NCBI GenBank assembly: GCA_903925015.1
Contig: CAIYDY010000441.1
Coordinates: 1 to 64,000 of the forward strand
Origin: an uncultured Acidobacteriia bacterium
Lineage (GTDB): Bacteria; Acidobacteriota; Terriglobia; Bryobacterales; Bryobacteraceae
DNA: 64,000 bases
Reading direction: 5' to 3'
A program made the position numbers and the translations under genes. Of this stretch, positions 15,961 through 21,820 are shown piece by piece. Under the pieces are notes generated by a model that saw only the letters and a list, made by a program, of their open reading frames with translations, ran no database searches and was not told the origin of the DNA. Numbering within the stretch: the first letter of the stretch is position 1; every line of letters begins with the position of its first letter.

Positions 15961-15993
15961 GCAGGCAGGGCATCGGGAGGCGACTAGAGAAAA

Positions 15994-16017
15994 GGGCCCG
16001 CCCGAGGGGACGGGCCC
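15994..16017 (-). terminator. Probable terminator of the minus-strand exported-protein gene
   Basis: GGGCCCG / CGGGCCC stem with a 10-nt loop; on the minus strand the stem is followed by TTTTC, whereas the plus strand has no T run. It fits termination of the frameshifted gene ending at 16034. Confidence 0.55.
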
Positions 16018-16033
16018 GGATCCGCGAACGGTA

Positions 16034-17387
16034 CTACTTGCCGAGTCGGATCGTGACGTTGTTGGTCGCGGTCTGGCCGTACCCGTTCGTCACGGTCAGG
16101 GTTGCGATGTAGTCTCCTGGGGGCCCGTCGATCAGTACGGGCGTCGAGGGAGAGTTTGCCTGCAGGAACGCCAAGCCGGGCGCGCTCGTACTCCACTGGT
16201 AGGTGGTGAAGGGGCCGCCGGTCGACGCCGCGCTGTTGATGGTGAGGTTGATCAGACGGGTGTTGACGGAGATCAGCGGGGCGCCGCTGATGGCGACGGA
16301 GGCGGTGAGGAAGTTCAGCGTGCCGATCGCGTGAGCGTCGAAGCTGGTGGCGATGCCCGCGGAGATCGTAACCGATGTCGCGGATCACAGCGGGGTTGTC
16401 GGTGGTGAAGCCGAACCCGAGCGCATAGCCCGAGTCGTCCGGAATGCCGTAAAGGTTCGCGCCGTCCAAGGCCACGCCCGTTAGGAAGGCGCTGGGACGC
16501 CGTGAGCAACTCAGGTACACATTGGTGATGTAACTGACCAAATAGCCGAACCGCGTGCCAACGATGTCGATGCTTGACGGAGTCGGGAACGCCGTGCCAA
16601 CGGGAACTGTGTACAGATCGGTTACCAGGATCTTGGTCGCGTTGTCGTAGGTTAGGCGCTCGCGGATCCAAGCTTGGCCTGAGAAGCTGACCGGATGCTC
16701 GAACTGGAAGCTGGAGAAGCCTGGGGCCGGGGTGGAGCAGGTGGCGTTGACGTTGGCAGTGGTGTTCAGGGTCAGGATGCTGTGAACCGGGATGTCCACG
16801 CCGGTGTCATACTCGCCGGTGTTGGAAAAGTCCGCGTTGTACAAACCCTGGCTCTCGCCGGAATCTATGCCGCCGAAGTAGACGGTATTGCCTTGCGCAT
16901 TCCATAGGGCGGAGACGCCAGCGGCGTTGAAGTTGAGAACAACTTTCTGGCCAAAAGAGGCGGGGGTGGTGGTAACGGTGCCCCAAGCCGTGAGGGTGGC
17001 CGGGTTGATATCGGCAAAAGCCTGCGGCTGGGAAGTCATCCCGTAAATCGTGATGCTGAACGAGCCGCCGTAGCGGTTGGGATTGGGTAGCGTAAGCGTG
17101 GCCGAAGTCAACGGGCTATCGAGTTGCGGGACCTGGAACGCAAACCAATTGCGGAAAACGCCGAAATCGGAGGGGTGCCCGCTGGCCGGATCGGAACGGG
17201 CGGCACCGGCGAAATAGCTGGCGAGGGGGCTGTGGTCGGGATTTGCCGCCGCCACGCCGCCTCCATAGAGATTGCAAGGAGTGTGGACGATATCGCAGAG
17301 CCAGCCGCGGGCGGATGCGTCGAGGCTGGTGACGCTGGCTTGCAGAGTGGGAGCCGTTCCGAGGGCGCAAAGGGCTAGAAGCCCCAA
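16034..17387 (-). pseudogene. Exported beta-rich protein with a +1 frameshift near 16376
   Basis: The N-terminal ~335 residues (signal-like GLLALCALGTAPTLQA, then SYFAGAARSD and NWFAFQVPQLDSPLTSATLT) resemble secreted beta-sandwich domains common in PEP-CTERM-type and acidobacterial exported proteins. After AVIRD the frame turns into Arg/His-rich nonsense to 15984. Skipping one base at 16376 restores a sensible sequence (SVTISAGIATSFDAHAIG) through an Ig/PKD-like end (FTTYQWSTSAPGLAF; GDYIATLTVTNGYGQ) to a stop at 16034-16036, just before a terminator. Either the gene is recently inactivated or this base is a sequencing error. The 5' end is also unclear: TTG 17387 gives a leader without positive charges, and the frame extends to about 17440 with RRLLRNG but no ATG/GTG/TTG there. 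Function unknown. Confidence 0.8.
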
Positions 17388-17610: not shown

Positions 17611-18606
17611 TTAAGACGCAACGGCGCAGTAGGTGAGGAGCGAGACATAGACGGCAGGCAGGATGCGGGAGCAGAGCCAGTCGAAGCGCATTGAGGCGTC
17701 CTCCCGACCTTGGTACGAAAGTTGGACCGAGCAGATGGTGCCCAGGATGGAAGTGGCGACATAGGTCATTGCACCCATGATCAACCTGTCGGCCATCGTG
17801 ATGCTTGCGCTTTCGGGGAGCATGCCGTTGATGGAAAACGATGTTGCAGCCACGGCAAAAATCGCCCCCGTGCCCAAGCCAACCCTCGGGCTCAAATCCC
17901 TGGGACGCACGAAGAACGCCAAGTAGGCGACCAGCACGGATACGAACAGGCCCAGAAAGAGTTTCACAAACCGTCCGTAACCCGGTCTTGCGATGAACGT
18001 GGAATAGACGTAGCGCGAAAACAGGGCTTGGGTACTTTGCTCTTCGGGTGATGTTGTGTCGGGCTGGACGCGGACCTTGTAGCGGTGGGCGGTGATGCTG
18101 GGTGCGGTGCGGGAGATCGTCCAGCCCGGAACTCGGACATCCTCGGCGGCTCCAATATAGGCGCTGTCCGGCTGGTAGACCAGTGACTTTGAATCTGCGA
18201 TGCCATCCTCCAACTCGATTGTCAGCTCGTGCTTGTCCAGCGGGAAGCGTTCCATGTTCCCAAATTTGGTGATGGTTGCGGCTATGCGGGCGGAGGCGAC
18301 GTTGAGGTCGCCAACCCTTTTCACAGTGATTGCTGATTTTGAATTGATGCGGCCGTTGACCAATTGGAGCGAATCCAGTGGGTGGAGCGAATCGTCCGTC
18401 CAGCGGCACCACACGTAGAAATCGACATTGAAGGAGTTGTTCTTGAGGTCGACTCCGTAGATTTGGTTCACGAAGGTTCCCACTGTGACGACCGCGGGTT
18501 TGGGCGTTGCGTGGCCTGGAGTTTGCAGTGCCGGAATGAGGCACAGAGCCAAAATTAGGCTAAAGTATTGCGAGACAAGTGCCGATAAGAAGGTTGGAGG
18601 CAACAT
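17611..18606 (-). CDS. Pentameric ligand-gated ion channel homologue (prokaryotic Cys-loop-type)
   Basis: 331 residues, close to GLIC/ELIC size. A signal peptide (to about residue 33) precedes a beta-sandwich ectodomain with the family's early motif NNSFNVDFYVWCRWTDD and a Pro-loop FPLDKHELTIELED (no flanking cysteines, as in bacterial members). Four hydrophobic segments follow: KLFLGLFVSVLVAYLAFFV (M1), VGLGTGAIFAVAATSFSI (M2, pore), RLIMGAMTYVATSILGTI (M3) and SRILPAVYVSLLTYCAVA (M4). The M2-M3 stretch NGMLPESASITMADRLIMGA aligns with the conserved LP....T..D pattern of ELIC/GLIC. The ligand and ion selectivity cannot be read. ATG 18606 overlaps, on the opposite strand, the ATG of the 56-aa gene at 18605. 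Function inferred from pattern matching by eye. Confidence 0.82.
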   Translation of the reverse strand: MLPPTFLSALVSQYFSLILALCLIPALQTPGHATPKPAVVTVGTFVNQIYGVDLKNNSFNVDFYVWCRWTDDSLHPLDSLQLVNGRINSKSAITVKRVGDLNVASARIAATITKFGNMERFPLDKHELTIELEDGIADSKSLVYQPDSAYIGAAEDVRVPGWTISRTAPSITAHRYKVRVQPDTTSPEEQSTQALFSRYVYSTFIARPGYGRFVKLFLGLFVSVLVAYLAFFVRPRDLSPRVGLGTGAIFAVAATSFSINGMLPESASITMADRLIMGAMTYVATSILGTICSVQLSYQGREDASMRFDWLCSRILPAVYVSLLTYCAVAS

Positions 18607-18775
18607 GCAGATTTCACCAGTATCGAACGTTGCGGCAATTCAGGGCACAGGTGCACCTTTGGCATCGGTAGCAAAGGCACCTGCGGCCGCACCCGGAGAC
18701 AGCGTTCATTTGAGCGGTGCGGCCCGGGCCCAAATCGCCGCCGGGGATGCCGACGGCGATGGGGATGGACATTAG
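18605..18775 (+). CDS. 56-aa peptide with acidic DxDG tail, divergent from the channel gene
   Basis: ATG 18605 is preceded by GGAGG (18596-18600) at ideal spacing, the main evidence that it is real. The product begins MQISPVSNVAAIQGTG, has an Ala/Pro-rich middle, a GDSVHLSGAARAQIAA segment and ends in DADGDGDGH, an Asp/Gly run like an EF-hand loop. There is no signal peptide or membrane helix. The DSVxLSxxA segment recalls short motifs of flagellar/axial proteins but I cannot assign a family. Its start codon shares CATG with the channel gene, so the ribosome site lies within the channel's coding DNA and the promoter must as well. Confidence 0.6.
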   Translation: MQISPVSNVAAIQGTGAPLASVAKAPAAAPGDSVHLSGAARAQIAAGDADGDGDGH

Positions 18776-18784
18776 GCCCGTAGG

Positions 18785-21700
18785 CTACTTTCCGGCATCC
18801 AGGTGGTCCCAATTCAGAATCGCGTTGAACGCAAGGAAGTAGGTTCCCTGCGTCTGCCAGCGCCAGAAGGGACGGAGGGCGAAAAGTACGATATGGCCCT
18901 TACCGAGGGTGACATCGACGGCGAGTGCGCGATTCGAAAGCGCTTCGCCGCCGGTCAGGGTACCGGAAAGGAGCATGTCGTTGGCGTTGGTTGGGAAGCG
19001 CATGATGACGCGGGGACGGTCGACCGGCACCATAGATGGGCCGTTGAAGGCTCCGCCGCGACCTCCTGCTGCCGCGGTGTCCGGGTTCGGAGTCGCGCCG
19101 GGAGCTCCTGTGGCTGCACCACCGCGACCGCCACCCCTACCGCCACGTCCACCGCCGCCCGCCGGAGCTGCGTCGGCGGGGGAAACGGGGCCCGCACCAC
19201 CAAGGATCGGGGTTGGGACCGACGCTCCGATCCCTTCAAAGGTGGAAATATGGATGCCGTTGGCGTTTGGTGTCACATTCTGGCCCTCTGCTGCTCCAAC
19301 TGCACCGCCACGTCCACCACCGCCCGCCGCTGTTGGAACGTTGAAGACGGGGTCTTGGTTGAAGTAAATCGGGAGGTCGCCCGCAGGGTAGCCGTAAGCG
19401 ATGGGGCTCTTGGTGTCCGCGAAGGTGCCGCGCATTACGGAGCCTCGGGCGAAAAGGTTCGCCGGGTGCTCGACGGTGACGCCGGAACTCATGTGGAATT
19501 CGGCCATCAGGGTGGACGTGGAACCCTCAGTGATCAAGGTGCCGCCGTCCTGTACAAATTTGGCCAGTTCCATCAGACCGTCCAAGCCAAGGCCACCGCG
19601 GATGTCATCGCTCTGGTCGAGTTGGCCCAAGTGAGGGGTGATGTCGGACTTTTTGTACGGAATGGGATCCTTGCCGGACATGGGGATGCCGGTGATCATG
19701 GATTGCGACGTGCCGCCGGTATGGGGGAAGATGATGACGTCGTACTTGGAGCGAAGATTGCCTTCGCGCAGTTTCTGGTCGGCGAAGTAGGTGTACGGGA
19801 CGCCGTAGGTATCTAGGGCGGCGCGAACCCATCCTTCGTCCTGGGTGCGAGTCCAAGAGTGGACGTAACCGATACGGGGGAGCTTGATTTCGTGTGTTTT
19901 GACAGTGGGTAGGGCCGGTGCGGCCACTCCGGAGAGGCCGAACTCTTTCAGCGACGCGTCGAGGCGGCCACCGCCTTCGGGCACGATGAATGCGCCGGCG
20001 CGGAACTTCCTGCCTGCGACTTCGAAATCGTCCTCGGCTGCCAGCATTTTCACGTCCCTGTTCTTGTACCGGAAGGACATGAGGGCGTTGTCGGTAGTGT
20101 GTTCGATCACTAGGACACCTCCGTTGCCGGATACGCCGCCAGCGGGTTTGGCATCCGAAGTGAGAAGCGTCATGCGCTGGTCGAGAACGGCTTTGCTGGT
20201 GACCGGCGTCACCTTCACGTTGCGCATGTACTGCATGGTCCAGCCGGTGTCGTCATAGGGACGGGGGTTTTGCGGAGGGTAGTTCTGGATGCTGAAGTAC
20301 ATGTCGGCCATGGTGCGGTAGGGTTGGTCGCCGCGGACGATGTAGTCGCCGGTATCCACCTTGAGATCGCCGGCTTGGAAAGCGGAATCCACTTTGTGGA
20401 CTTCGAGACCTTGGTGGCGGAGGTCGTTCAGCATATCCGTGGCATCGACGCCGCGCTTCTGGCCTGCCGGGACGTGCCATGCATAAACAGGGCCGTCCTT
20501 GCCCTTGTCGATGGACCGTTTATTTTTGAGCCAGTAGTTTTCCAGGTAGAGTTCGCGGTCGACGCCCACCTTGTGGATGGCGATGAGCAAGGCCGATTCC
20601 TGGATGTTGGTATTGTTGCGGGGACCCCACTTGATGGAAGCCAGCGGGGGATTCGGGCGGTACCATTCACGGCTGGTGGCGCTGGGCTGGAGTTGGAGGT
20701 TGTCGACGATGTCCGGTCCGTAGCTCTGCACTTCATAGAACCGGCCGAAGGAGTTGTGGGTGGTGGCGATCCAGAGCAGGTAGTTGGGGACCCAGCCATC
20801 GTAGAAGCCGTAGGTCCAGACGCCGGGGACGCTGCGTTTGGCCATTTCCATGACTTCGGTTTCGGCCAGCATCCACCATTCGTCCACTGAGATGGGATCG
20901 AGGGAATTGTTGTAGGGGCCGGTACCGGTGGAAACGTAGAGATACGACTGGGCCTCGTGGAGGTCGTGGCCAACGGTGGGGTGCCAATCGACCAGAGCTT
21001 GGGTGATGTGCTTGGTGAGTTTGAGGTATTGGCCCATGCCGTCGCGATTGTTGTCGTGCTGGACGTACTTGCCCCAGTACATGAGCGGCGGGCGGGGCTT
21101 GCCGGTCTTCTTGCCGTAGTAGTAGGTGTCGACGGCCTTTTCCCGGCCATCGACTTCGATCACGGGGGTTAGAAAAGTGATGACATTGTTCCGGATGGAC
21201 TGGATGAAGGGTGTTTCCTCGACAATGAGGCGGTAGGCGAGCTCGATCAGCATCTCCGGGCCGCCGGTTTCGGGCGAGTGGATGCCGGAAAGGGCCCAAT
21301 AGAGGGGCTTGGCTGTGTGGATCAGCTCTTTGGCCTGCGCCTCTGTGATTTTGCGGGGGTCGCCGAGCTTGGCGAGCATGTCCTTGTACTTGTCGAGGTC
21401 CTTGATGGTGGCCTCGTCGGCGATCGCGAGGACGACGAGGTCACGGCCTTCCTCGGTCTGGCCGAGCTTCCAGAACTTGGCGCGCGGGGAGGCCTTGCCG
21501 AGCGCTTCGTAGTAGCGGTTGATATCGGCGGCATAGGTGAGCTCACCGGGGGTGCCGGGGATGCGGCCGAAGAATTTCAGGGGCGAGGGGACCGTGTCGG
21601 ACACCGGCATGTGGTCGACGAGCTCGGTCGTGATGCGGGGATCCTGGAGGTATTGCTTGATGAGTTTGCCGTATTCCTCATCCTGCTTCTGGGGAGCTGG

Positions 21701-21820
21701 GGTTGTCGGAGCAGTTGCAGCGGCGGGTTTGGCTTTTCGATTCTGGGCTGGTGCGCTTGCAAGGATCAGGCAGGCAAGGGTGATGAGCGTGGCGACGCGT
21801 GTCTTCATCGTACTTGGCAT
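18785..21820 (-). CDS. Exported M14-family zinc carboxypeptidase-like protein with C-terminal amidotransferase-like domain
   Basis: 1011 residues; a signal peptide (TRVATLITLACLILASAPAQ) follows either ATG 21820 or ATG 21808. The M14 domain has the zinc motif HxxE in SGIHSPETGGPEM and a downstream zinc-ligand region in VGHDLHEAQSYLY. Beyond about residue 600 there is a class I amidotransferase/ThuA-like fold (YDVIIFPHTGGTS; MELAKFVQDGGTLITEGSTS), a known combination in large exported M14 proteins. Two Gly/Arg/Ala-rich tracts (encoded around 19020-19170 and 19280-19330) interrupt the C-terminal part. It probably degrades peptides or peptidoglycan-derived peptides in the periplasm or outside. 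No clear operon partner. Confidence 0.85.
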   Translation of the reverse strand: MPSTMKTRVATLITLACLILASAPAQNRKAKPAAATAPTTPAPQKQDEEYGKLIKQYLQDPRITTELVDHMPVSDTVPSPLKFFGRIPGTPGELTYAADINRYYEALGKASPRAKFWKLGQTEEGRDLVVLAIADEATIKDLDKYKDMLAKLGDPRKITEAQAKELIHTAKPLYWALSGIHSPETGGPEMLIELAYRLIVEETPFIQSIRNNVITFLTPVIEVDGREKAVDTYYYGKKTGKPRPPLMYWGKYVQHDNNRDGMGQYLKLTKHITQALVDWHPTVGHDLHEAQSYLYVSTGTGPYNNSLDPISVDEWWMLAETEVMEMAKRSVPGVWTYGFYDGWVPNYLLWIATTHNSFGRFYEVQSYGPDIVDNLQLQPSATSREWYRPNPPLASIKWGPRNNTNIQESALLIAIHKVGVDRELYLENYWLKNKRSIDKGKDGPVYAWHVPAGQKRGVDATDMLNDLRHQGLEVHKVDSAFQAGDLKVDTGDYIVRGDQPYRTMADMYFSIQNYPPQNPRPYDDTGWTMQYMRNVKVTPVTSKAVLDQRMTLLTSDAKPAGGVSGNGGVLVIEHTTDNALMSFRYKNRDVKMLAAEDDFEVAGRKFRAGAFIVPEGGGRLDASLKEFGLSGVAAPALPTVKTHEIKLPRIGYVHSWTRTQDEGWVRAALDTYGVPYTYFADQKLREGNLRSKYDVIIFPHTGGTSQSMITGIPMSGKDPIPYKKSDITPHLGQLDQSDDIRGGLGLDGLMELAKFVQDGGTLITEGSTSTLMAEFHMSSGVTVEHPANLFARGSVMRGTFADTKSPIAYGYPAGDLPIYFNQDPVFNVPTAAGGGGRGGAVGAAEGQNVTPNANGIHISTFEGIGASVPTPILGGAGPVSPADAAPAGGGGRGGRGGGRGGAATGAPGATPNPDTAAAGGRGGAFNGPSMVPVDRPRVIMRFPTNANDMLLSGTLTGGEALSNRALAVDVTLGKGHIVLFALRPFWRWQTQGTYFLAFNAILNWDHLDAGK

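Follow-up and report, generated by a model that had tools for sequence, protein, structure and literature searches.

The gene at positions 17611-18606 on the minus strand of the window (the whole 64,000-nt stretch of DNA that was analysed) is, to judge from profile comparisons and substitution rates, a genuine homologue of the pentameric ligand-gated ion channels (pLGICs) that is maintained by selection. A soil acidobacterium carries in it a bacterial cousin of the neurotransmitter receptors of nerve cells. By the same comparisons, the encoded protein of 331 amino acids is not a standard subunit of the GLIC/ELIC type. In its outer sensing domain, one of the ligand-holding loops, loop A, is missing, so that the signal is probably sensed in a modified way. 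Ligand recognition in the receptor family as a whole is described in terms of six loops, and loop A is one of them. A natural and conserved group of proteins without this loop would reveal which parts of the pocket and of the gating path are dispensable, and the compact form would serve as a reduced template for structural work.

The assignment to the pLGICs, which had been proposed in a preliminary description of this DNA, was well supported. A phmmer search of the PDB with the 331-aa protein returned only pLGICs as sequence matches, with a chimeric GABA-A receptor at the top (E 1.3e-11), followed by a GLIC-GlyR chimera, DeCLIC, ELIC and GLIC. A family profile of the protein and its relatives matched the pLGICs of the PDB with an E-value of 4.2e-25, and hhalign of this profile against canonical acidobacterial pLGICs gave a full-length alignment of 281 columns (E 5.7e-33). 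In these sequence and profile comparisons, the homology to solved pLGICs spans the ectodomain as well as the pore domain. The NCBIfam models LIC (1.5e-11) and LGIC_1 (4e-10) also match the protein, both under their cut-offs, and Pfam Neur_chan_LBD covers residues 29-74 only, with a score of 24.3 bits slightly under the curated cut-off of 26. The source genome was silent in a search with PF02931, but the control genomes were silent as well. AlphaFold models computed from one or two sequences, too few as input, reached a mean pLDDT of 39.6 and 37.5, respectively.

A channel with 83% identity to the window protein is present in a congener (L001/L003, an uncultured Acidobacteriia MAG). Comparison of the two genes (NG86) yielded a dN of 0.097 and a dS of 0.684, which corresponds to a dN/dS of approximately 0.14 overall, and a value of 0.09 was obtained for the ectodomain. 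By these ratios, the channel gene is under purifying selection.

The features of the locus are compiled in Table 1. According to the superfamily survey by Jaiteh et al. (PMC4795631), the most conserved residues are the F/Y-P-x-D motif of the Pro-loop, whose proline is the sole absolutely conserved one of the pLGIC superfamily, an aromatic residue in beta-9, the pre-M1 arginine and the M2-M3 proline. The window protein possesses all of them (F121-P122-D124, W162, R207 and P264). The proline at the 14' position of M1 is replaced by G219, a minor alternative listed in the same survey, where proline accounts for 77% and glycine for 5% of the superfamily, so that the proline is not universal.

Table 1. 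Coordinates of the features in and around the channel gene
Feature	Position	Strand	Basis or remark
Compact pLGIC subunit gene, 331 aa	17611..18606	-	ORF, PDB matches, dN/dS, profile alignment
N-terminal hydrophobic segment, putative signal peptide, residues 1-33	18508..18606	-	hydropathy 2.13 over residues 6-24
Beta-1/beta-2 strands, residues 39-70, F63 and W66 conserved in the compact set	18397..18492	-	strand limits by alignment
Shortened beta-2 to loop-A stretch, residues 70-84	18355..18399	-	beta-3 and loop-A W-x-P missing
Pro-loop FPLDKHEL, residues 121-128	18223..18246	-	
Loop B Glu133-Asp134	18205..18210	-	invariant in 13/13 compact sequences; E133 aligned with ELIC Glu131
Loop C region, residues 174-197, with D183	18016..18087	-	consensus of the relatives H-x-Y-x-T-x-x-G-D
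Pre-M1 Arg207, partner of Pro-loop Asp124	17986..17988	-	salt bridge known from PMC4795631
M1 helix, residues 210-233, Gly219 where Pro is usual	17908..17979	-	
M2 pore helix, residues 240-262: S-2' P-1' R0' G2' G6' F9' A13' F16'	17821..17889	-	
M2-M3 loop LPESASITMAD, residues 263-273	17788..17820	-	
M3 helix, residues 274-297	17716..17787	-	
M4 helix, residues 302-330	17617..17703	-	
56-aa small peptide gene	18605..18775	+	adjacent by position only; predates the channel or is independent of it
GGAGG ribosome-binding site of the small gene	18596..18600	+	within the sequence antisense to the first channel codons
M14 zinc carboxypeptidase gene	18785..21820	-	on the strand of the channel and 178 nt upstream of it

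Most of the sequence motifs named earlier were recovered. The strand NVDFYVWCRW corresponds to N60-W69, and the Pro-loop with F121-P122-L123-D124 is free of cysteine, with none of the disulfide cysteines of the animal Cys-loop nearby. Of the four membrane segments, M1, M3 and M4 form hydropathy peaks, as does the N-terminal segment, and M2 (about 240-262) follows from the alignment. The M2-M3 pattern LP....T..D is present with L263-P264, T270 and D273, but five residues and not four separate LP from T. The suggested signal peptide agrees with the hydrophobic N-terminal segment, but there is no Lys or Arg before K36, so that the early positive charge is missing, unlike in the congener, whose N-terminus contains R13 and R16. 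Only about 35 residues lie ahead of the ectodomain, and there is no Cache domain.

The expectation of an ectodomain like that of GLIC or ELIC did not hold, since the stretch between beta-2 and loop A is about 20 residues shorter throughout a group of related proteins. This compact set comprises 13 full-length sequences from Acidobacteriota, from Azospirillum megaplasmids and from one Streptomyces plasmid. The distance from the beta-2 tryptophan (W69) to the loop-A asparagine (N84) is 13-14 residues in ten compact sequences versus 26-41 in ten canonical acidobacterial pLGICs. From the same tryptophan to the phenylalanine of the Pro-loop, we counted 51-52 residues in the compact and 65-80 in the canonical acidobacterial proteins, and HMMER alignments gave 71 for a GLIC chimera and 75 for an ELIC chimera. 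About 20 residues of GLIC and ELIC are absent, including the beta-3/loop-A stretch with its W-x-P motif, which none of the compact sequences possesses, in contrast to the canonical acidobacterial pLGICs. Three sequences (L069-L071) that were found after the signature had been defined show the same gap.

Among solved structures, the compact ectodomain is matched best by GLIC, the proton-gated channel of Gloeobacter violaceus (top entry at E 5.6e-14), and both are Cys-less Pro-loop receptors with a short M3-M4 loop. However, residues 53-75 of GLIC, which comprise beta-3 and the beginning of loop A including W-x-P, are unmatched: the profile aligns up to residue 52 and resumes at 76. In addition, the window protein differs from GLIC by the Phe at 9'. 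The amine-gated ELIC from Erwinia/Dickeya is matched with an E-value of 8e-10, and the window protein is about 24 residues shorter than ELIC between the beta-2 tryptophan and the Pro-loop. DeCLIC and sTeLIC are among the best matches of the transmembrane part (3e-11 with 6fl9 and 1.4e-9 with 6v4a), but neither aligns across the shortened stretch, and DeCLIC has two extra N-terminal domains and a Leu at 9' (PMC9897478).

Beyond the deletion, the 13 compact sequences have F63, E133-D134, R0' and F9' in common, and G43, W66, D147 and D183 are also fixed in all ten core members. Canonical relatives are variable at both positions that correspond to E133 and D134. When closely related core members are compared pairwise, the ectodomain is at least as well conserved as the transmembrane part (identities of 92% vs 78%, 90% vs 77% and 96% vs 94%), whereas four canonical pairs show the reverse trend. 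The distant pair P0001-L004 breaks the pattern of the core, with 28% identity in the ectodomain and 37% in the pore. A further deviation concerns the branch of the genus g326 (L069-L071), where D147 and mostly also D183 are lost, and where the Asp of the Pro-loop and the pre-M1 Arg are both located one residue later (FPFSD / PRG), a double shift that, as far as the alignment indicates, might keep the Asp-Arg salt bridge. These losses, together with the displaced Asp-Arg pair, indicate that the proposed acidic pocket is not uniform across the compact set.

The relatives were searched in samples of genomes, mainly of Acidobacteriota, and the distribution of the compact set beyond this phylum is therefore known from plasmids only. 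The viral contigs and phages scanned contained no further relatives, and the scan of genome contigs yielded the 83% congener alone. Two candidates (G190/L006 and G404/L011) were discarded as proteins of a different membrane protein family whose N-terminal membrane segments matched weakly, and a third (G623/L035) turned out to be a sugar-transferase-like protein. The compact group is apparently small and uncharacterised. The parts consulted of two superfamily surveys and the open-access papers searched contain no mention of the loop-A deletion. The compact set points to unstudied sensory channels of soil bacteria, including the plant-associated Azospirillum. One of its members, encoded on plasmid pAB510b of Azospirillum sp. 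B510 (L015), is annotated as hypothetical protein. Its neighbours are annotated as alanine racemase, peptide ABC transporter substrate-binding protein and another ABC substrate-binding protein, an arrangement reminiscent of the PBP-II neighbourhoods reported in 2004.

In a tree of 26 sequences, the compact proteins are found on one side of a branch with a support of only 48/0, and the canonical and the Cache-fused proteins each form a group, with 94/86 and 100/100, respectively. Because of the low support of the first branch, the term compact set is used here, which is not meant to imply an established clade. The window protein shares 44% identity with a channel from another acidobacterial family and 38% with that of Azospirillum, more than the 32-33% that it shares with the channel of an acidobacterium from its own family. 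Only two genomes of the genus gave a match to the channel. Horizontal transfer or repeated loss of the compact channel is likely.

Prokaryotic pLGICs fused to a Cache domain were described in 2004 by Tasneem et al. (PMC549065). We found six such acidobacterial proteins of approximately 690-770 aa (L028:3-2063:+, L029:133-2436:+, L030:1213-3429:-, L033:1135-3264:-, L034:4-2208:+ and L036:328-2397:+), in which an N-terminal Cache-type sensor (tested with Pfam for L028, L029 and L036) is followed by a pLGIC-like ectodomain and the membrane helices. With the compact set, these relatives have in common a stretch of 14-15 residues at the shortened site, W66, D147 and a related loop-C motif T-N-F-G. 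They differ in that they are mostly without R0' and possess His or Gln instead of the M2-M3 proline, and the window protein has no Cache domain. One could speculate that the compact and the Cache-fused forms constitute a distinct class of pLGICs, which never had or has lost loop A and which would bind its ligand in a pocket of a loop-B Glu-Asp and a loop-C Asp and gate at F9'; such a class may even preserve a simpler ectodomain, ancestral to the animal form with loop A. We consider this doubtful at present. A different fusion is suggested by a pLGIC-like ORF of 788 aa (L073, genome G897), whose long N-terminal part looks like a periplasmic binding protein and which resembles the PBP-I fusions of Tasneem et al.

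The best explanation for the window protein, and in our opinion a probable one given its sequence, is that of a compact homopentameric pLGIC with a periplasmic ligand and a modified interface pocket. What we infer about the pentamer, its channel activity, its pocket and its gate is the following. Five identical subunits would be located in the inner membrane with their beta-sandwiches in the periplasm. A small ligand would bind at the subunit interface, in a pocket that is built without loop A and mainly consists of loop B (Glu133-Asp134), loop C (Asp183) and the aromatic beta-2/loop-D strand. Binding would move the Pro-loop, with Asp124 salt-bridged to the pre-M1 Arg207, against the M2-M3 loop around Pro264, and this movement would open a hydrophobic gate at Phe 9'.

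For the ligand, a cation, either a small amine or a divalent ion, is our leading guess, albeit a tentative one. It is suggested by the conserved acidic residues and by the alignment of E133 with Glu131 of ELIC, a contact of amine agonists, which falls into a HMMER alignment that is free of gaps from the Pro-loop to loop B. In ELIC, amine agonists are close to Glu77 in loop A and Glu131 in loop B, and the alanine mutant of either residue is unresponsive (PMC3119659). The loop that carries Glu77, and with it Ile79, is deleted in the window protein.

It is conceivable, but rather unlikely, that the interface pocket is vestigial and that gating depends on protons or on the presence or withdrawal of divalent ions, in the manner of GLIC or DeCLIC. 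The conserved acidic residues would then bind protons or calcium instead of belonging to a ligand pocket. The missing loop A normally contributes to the principal side of the pocket, the proton-gated GLIC is the closest solved structure to the compact ectodomain, and the calcium site of DeCLIC, located at the subunit interface, is built from acidic residues (PMC9897478). However, this calcium site is formed by the beta1-beta2 loop and loop F and not by loops B and C (PMC9897478), and the core members have kept a specific conserved pattern in loops B and C, which suggests a specific ligand.

Even less probable is a membrane receptor derived from pLGICs that does not conduct ions but signals through or sequesters a partner protein. 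Such a loss of conduction would be in line with the unusual pore lining (G2', G6', F9' and F16'), the loss of the M1 proline in 12 of the 13 compact sequences and the fact that R0' and the M2-M3 proline are mostly lost in the more distant Cache-fused relatives. On the other hand, the compact set itself keeps R0', F9' and mostly also the M2-M3 proline, Phe at 9' is a known alternative within the superfamily (13%), and a conserved partner gene was not seen.

Assuming a conducting pentamer, the sequence gives few hints on ion selectivity. Cation-selective pLGICs follow the rule of an E-[R/K] directly ahead of M2, as stated in PMC549065. The window protein has S-2' P-1' R0' instead, with a Pro at the -1' position where ELIC possesses Glu, which is not proof of anion selectivity, and some compact members exhibit an Asp at -2'. 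The transmembrane profile of the compact set ranks GluCl, GlyR and GABA-A receptors above the animal cation channels. Anion selectivity was nevertheless dismissed as a conclusion from this likeness, since a control with four canonical acidobacterial pLGICs ranks them likewise and the likeness therefore says nothing specific.

The channel gene and the neighbouring 56-aa ORF are divergent with overlapping start codons (CATG), and the small gene's leader with its ribosome-binding site lies antisense to the first nine channel codons. The preliminary description had taken the two genes as a pair, but this pairing proved to be positional. That the peptide is a ligand or regulator of the channel is very improbable and disfavoured by its distribution: despite the overlap and the conservation of the arrangement in both channel-bearing species, nine congeneric genomes that lack the channel contain homologues of the peptide gene (E <= 0.01), as do the two that have it, and a search around L004 and L007, two acidobacterial homologues of the channel, revealed none. 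In one of the channel-less genomes (G019), the 56-aa gene comes directly after DnaJ-MerR; its leader and ribosome-binding site are the same, and the antisense of this leader reads MLPPMVLSAV, like the first codons of the channel. Most simply, the channel gene either came to lie next to a small gene that is independent of it, or disappeared from there. The 56-aa family has the C-terminal sequence GDADGDGDGH, no match in Pfam or NCBIfam, and several genomic contexts across the genus (e.g. L059:4804-4977).

No terminator-like site was found between the M14 gene and the channel, and a co-transcription of both genes appears possible from their arrangement. We do not count this adjacency as evidence for an operon, since the two species share one inherited locus, and inspection by eye revealed no conserved neighbours of the channel in other genera. 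In the congener, MerR directly follows the channel, whereas the window contains a 467-codon ORF in between (15984-17387, minus strand). This ORF has no Pfam match and is missing from the locus of the congener; its last part is rich in arginine and looks out of frame, so that a frameshift is possible.
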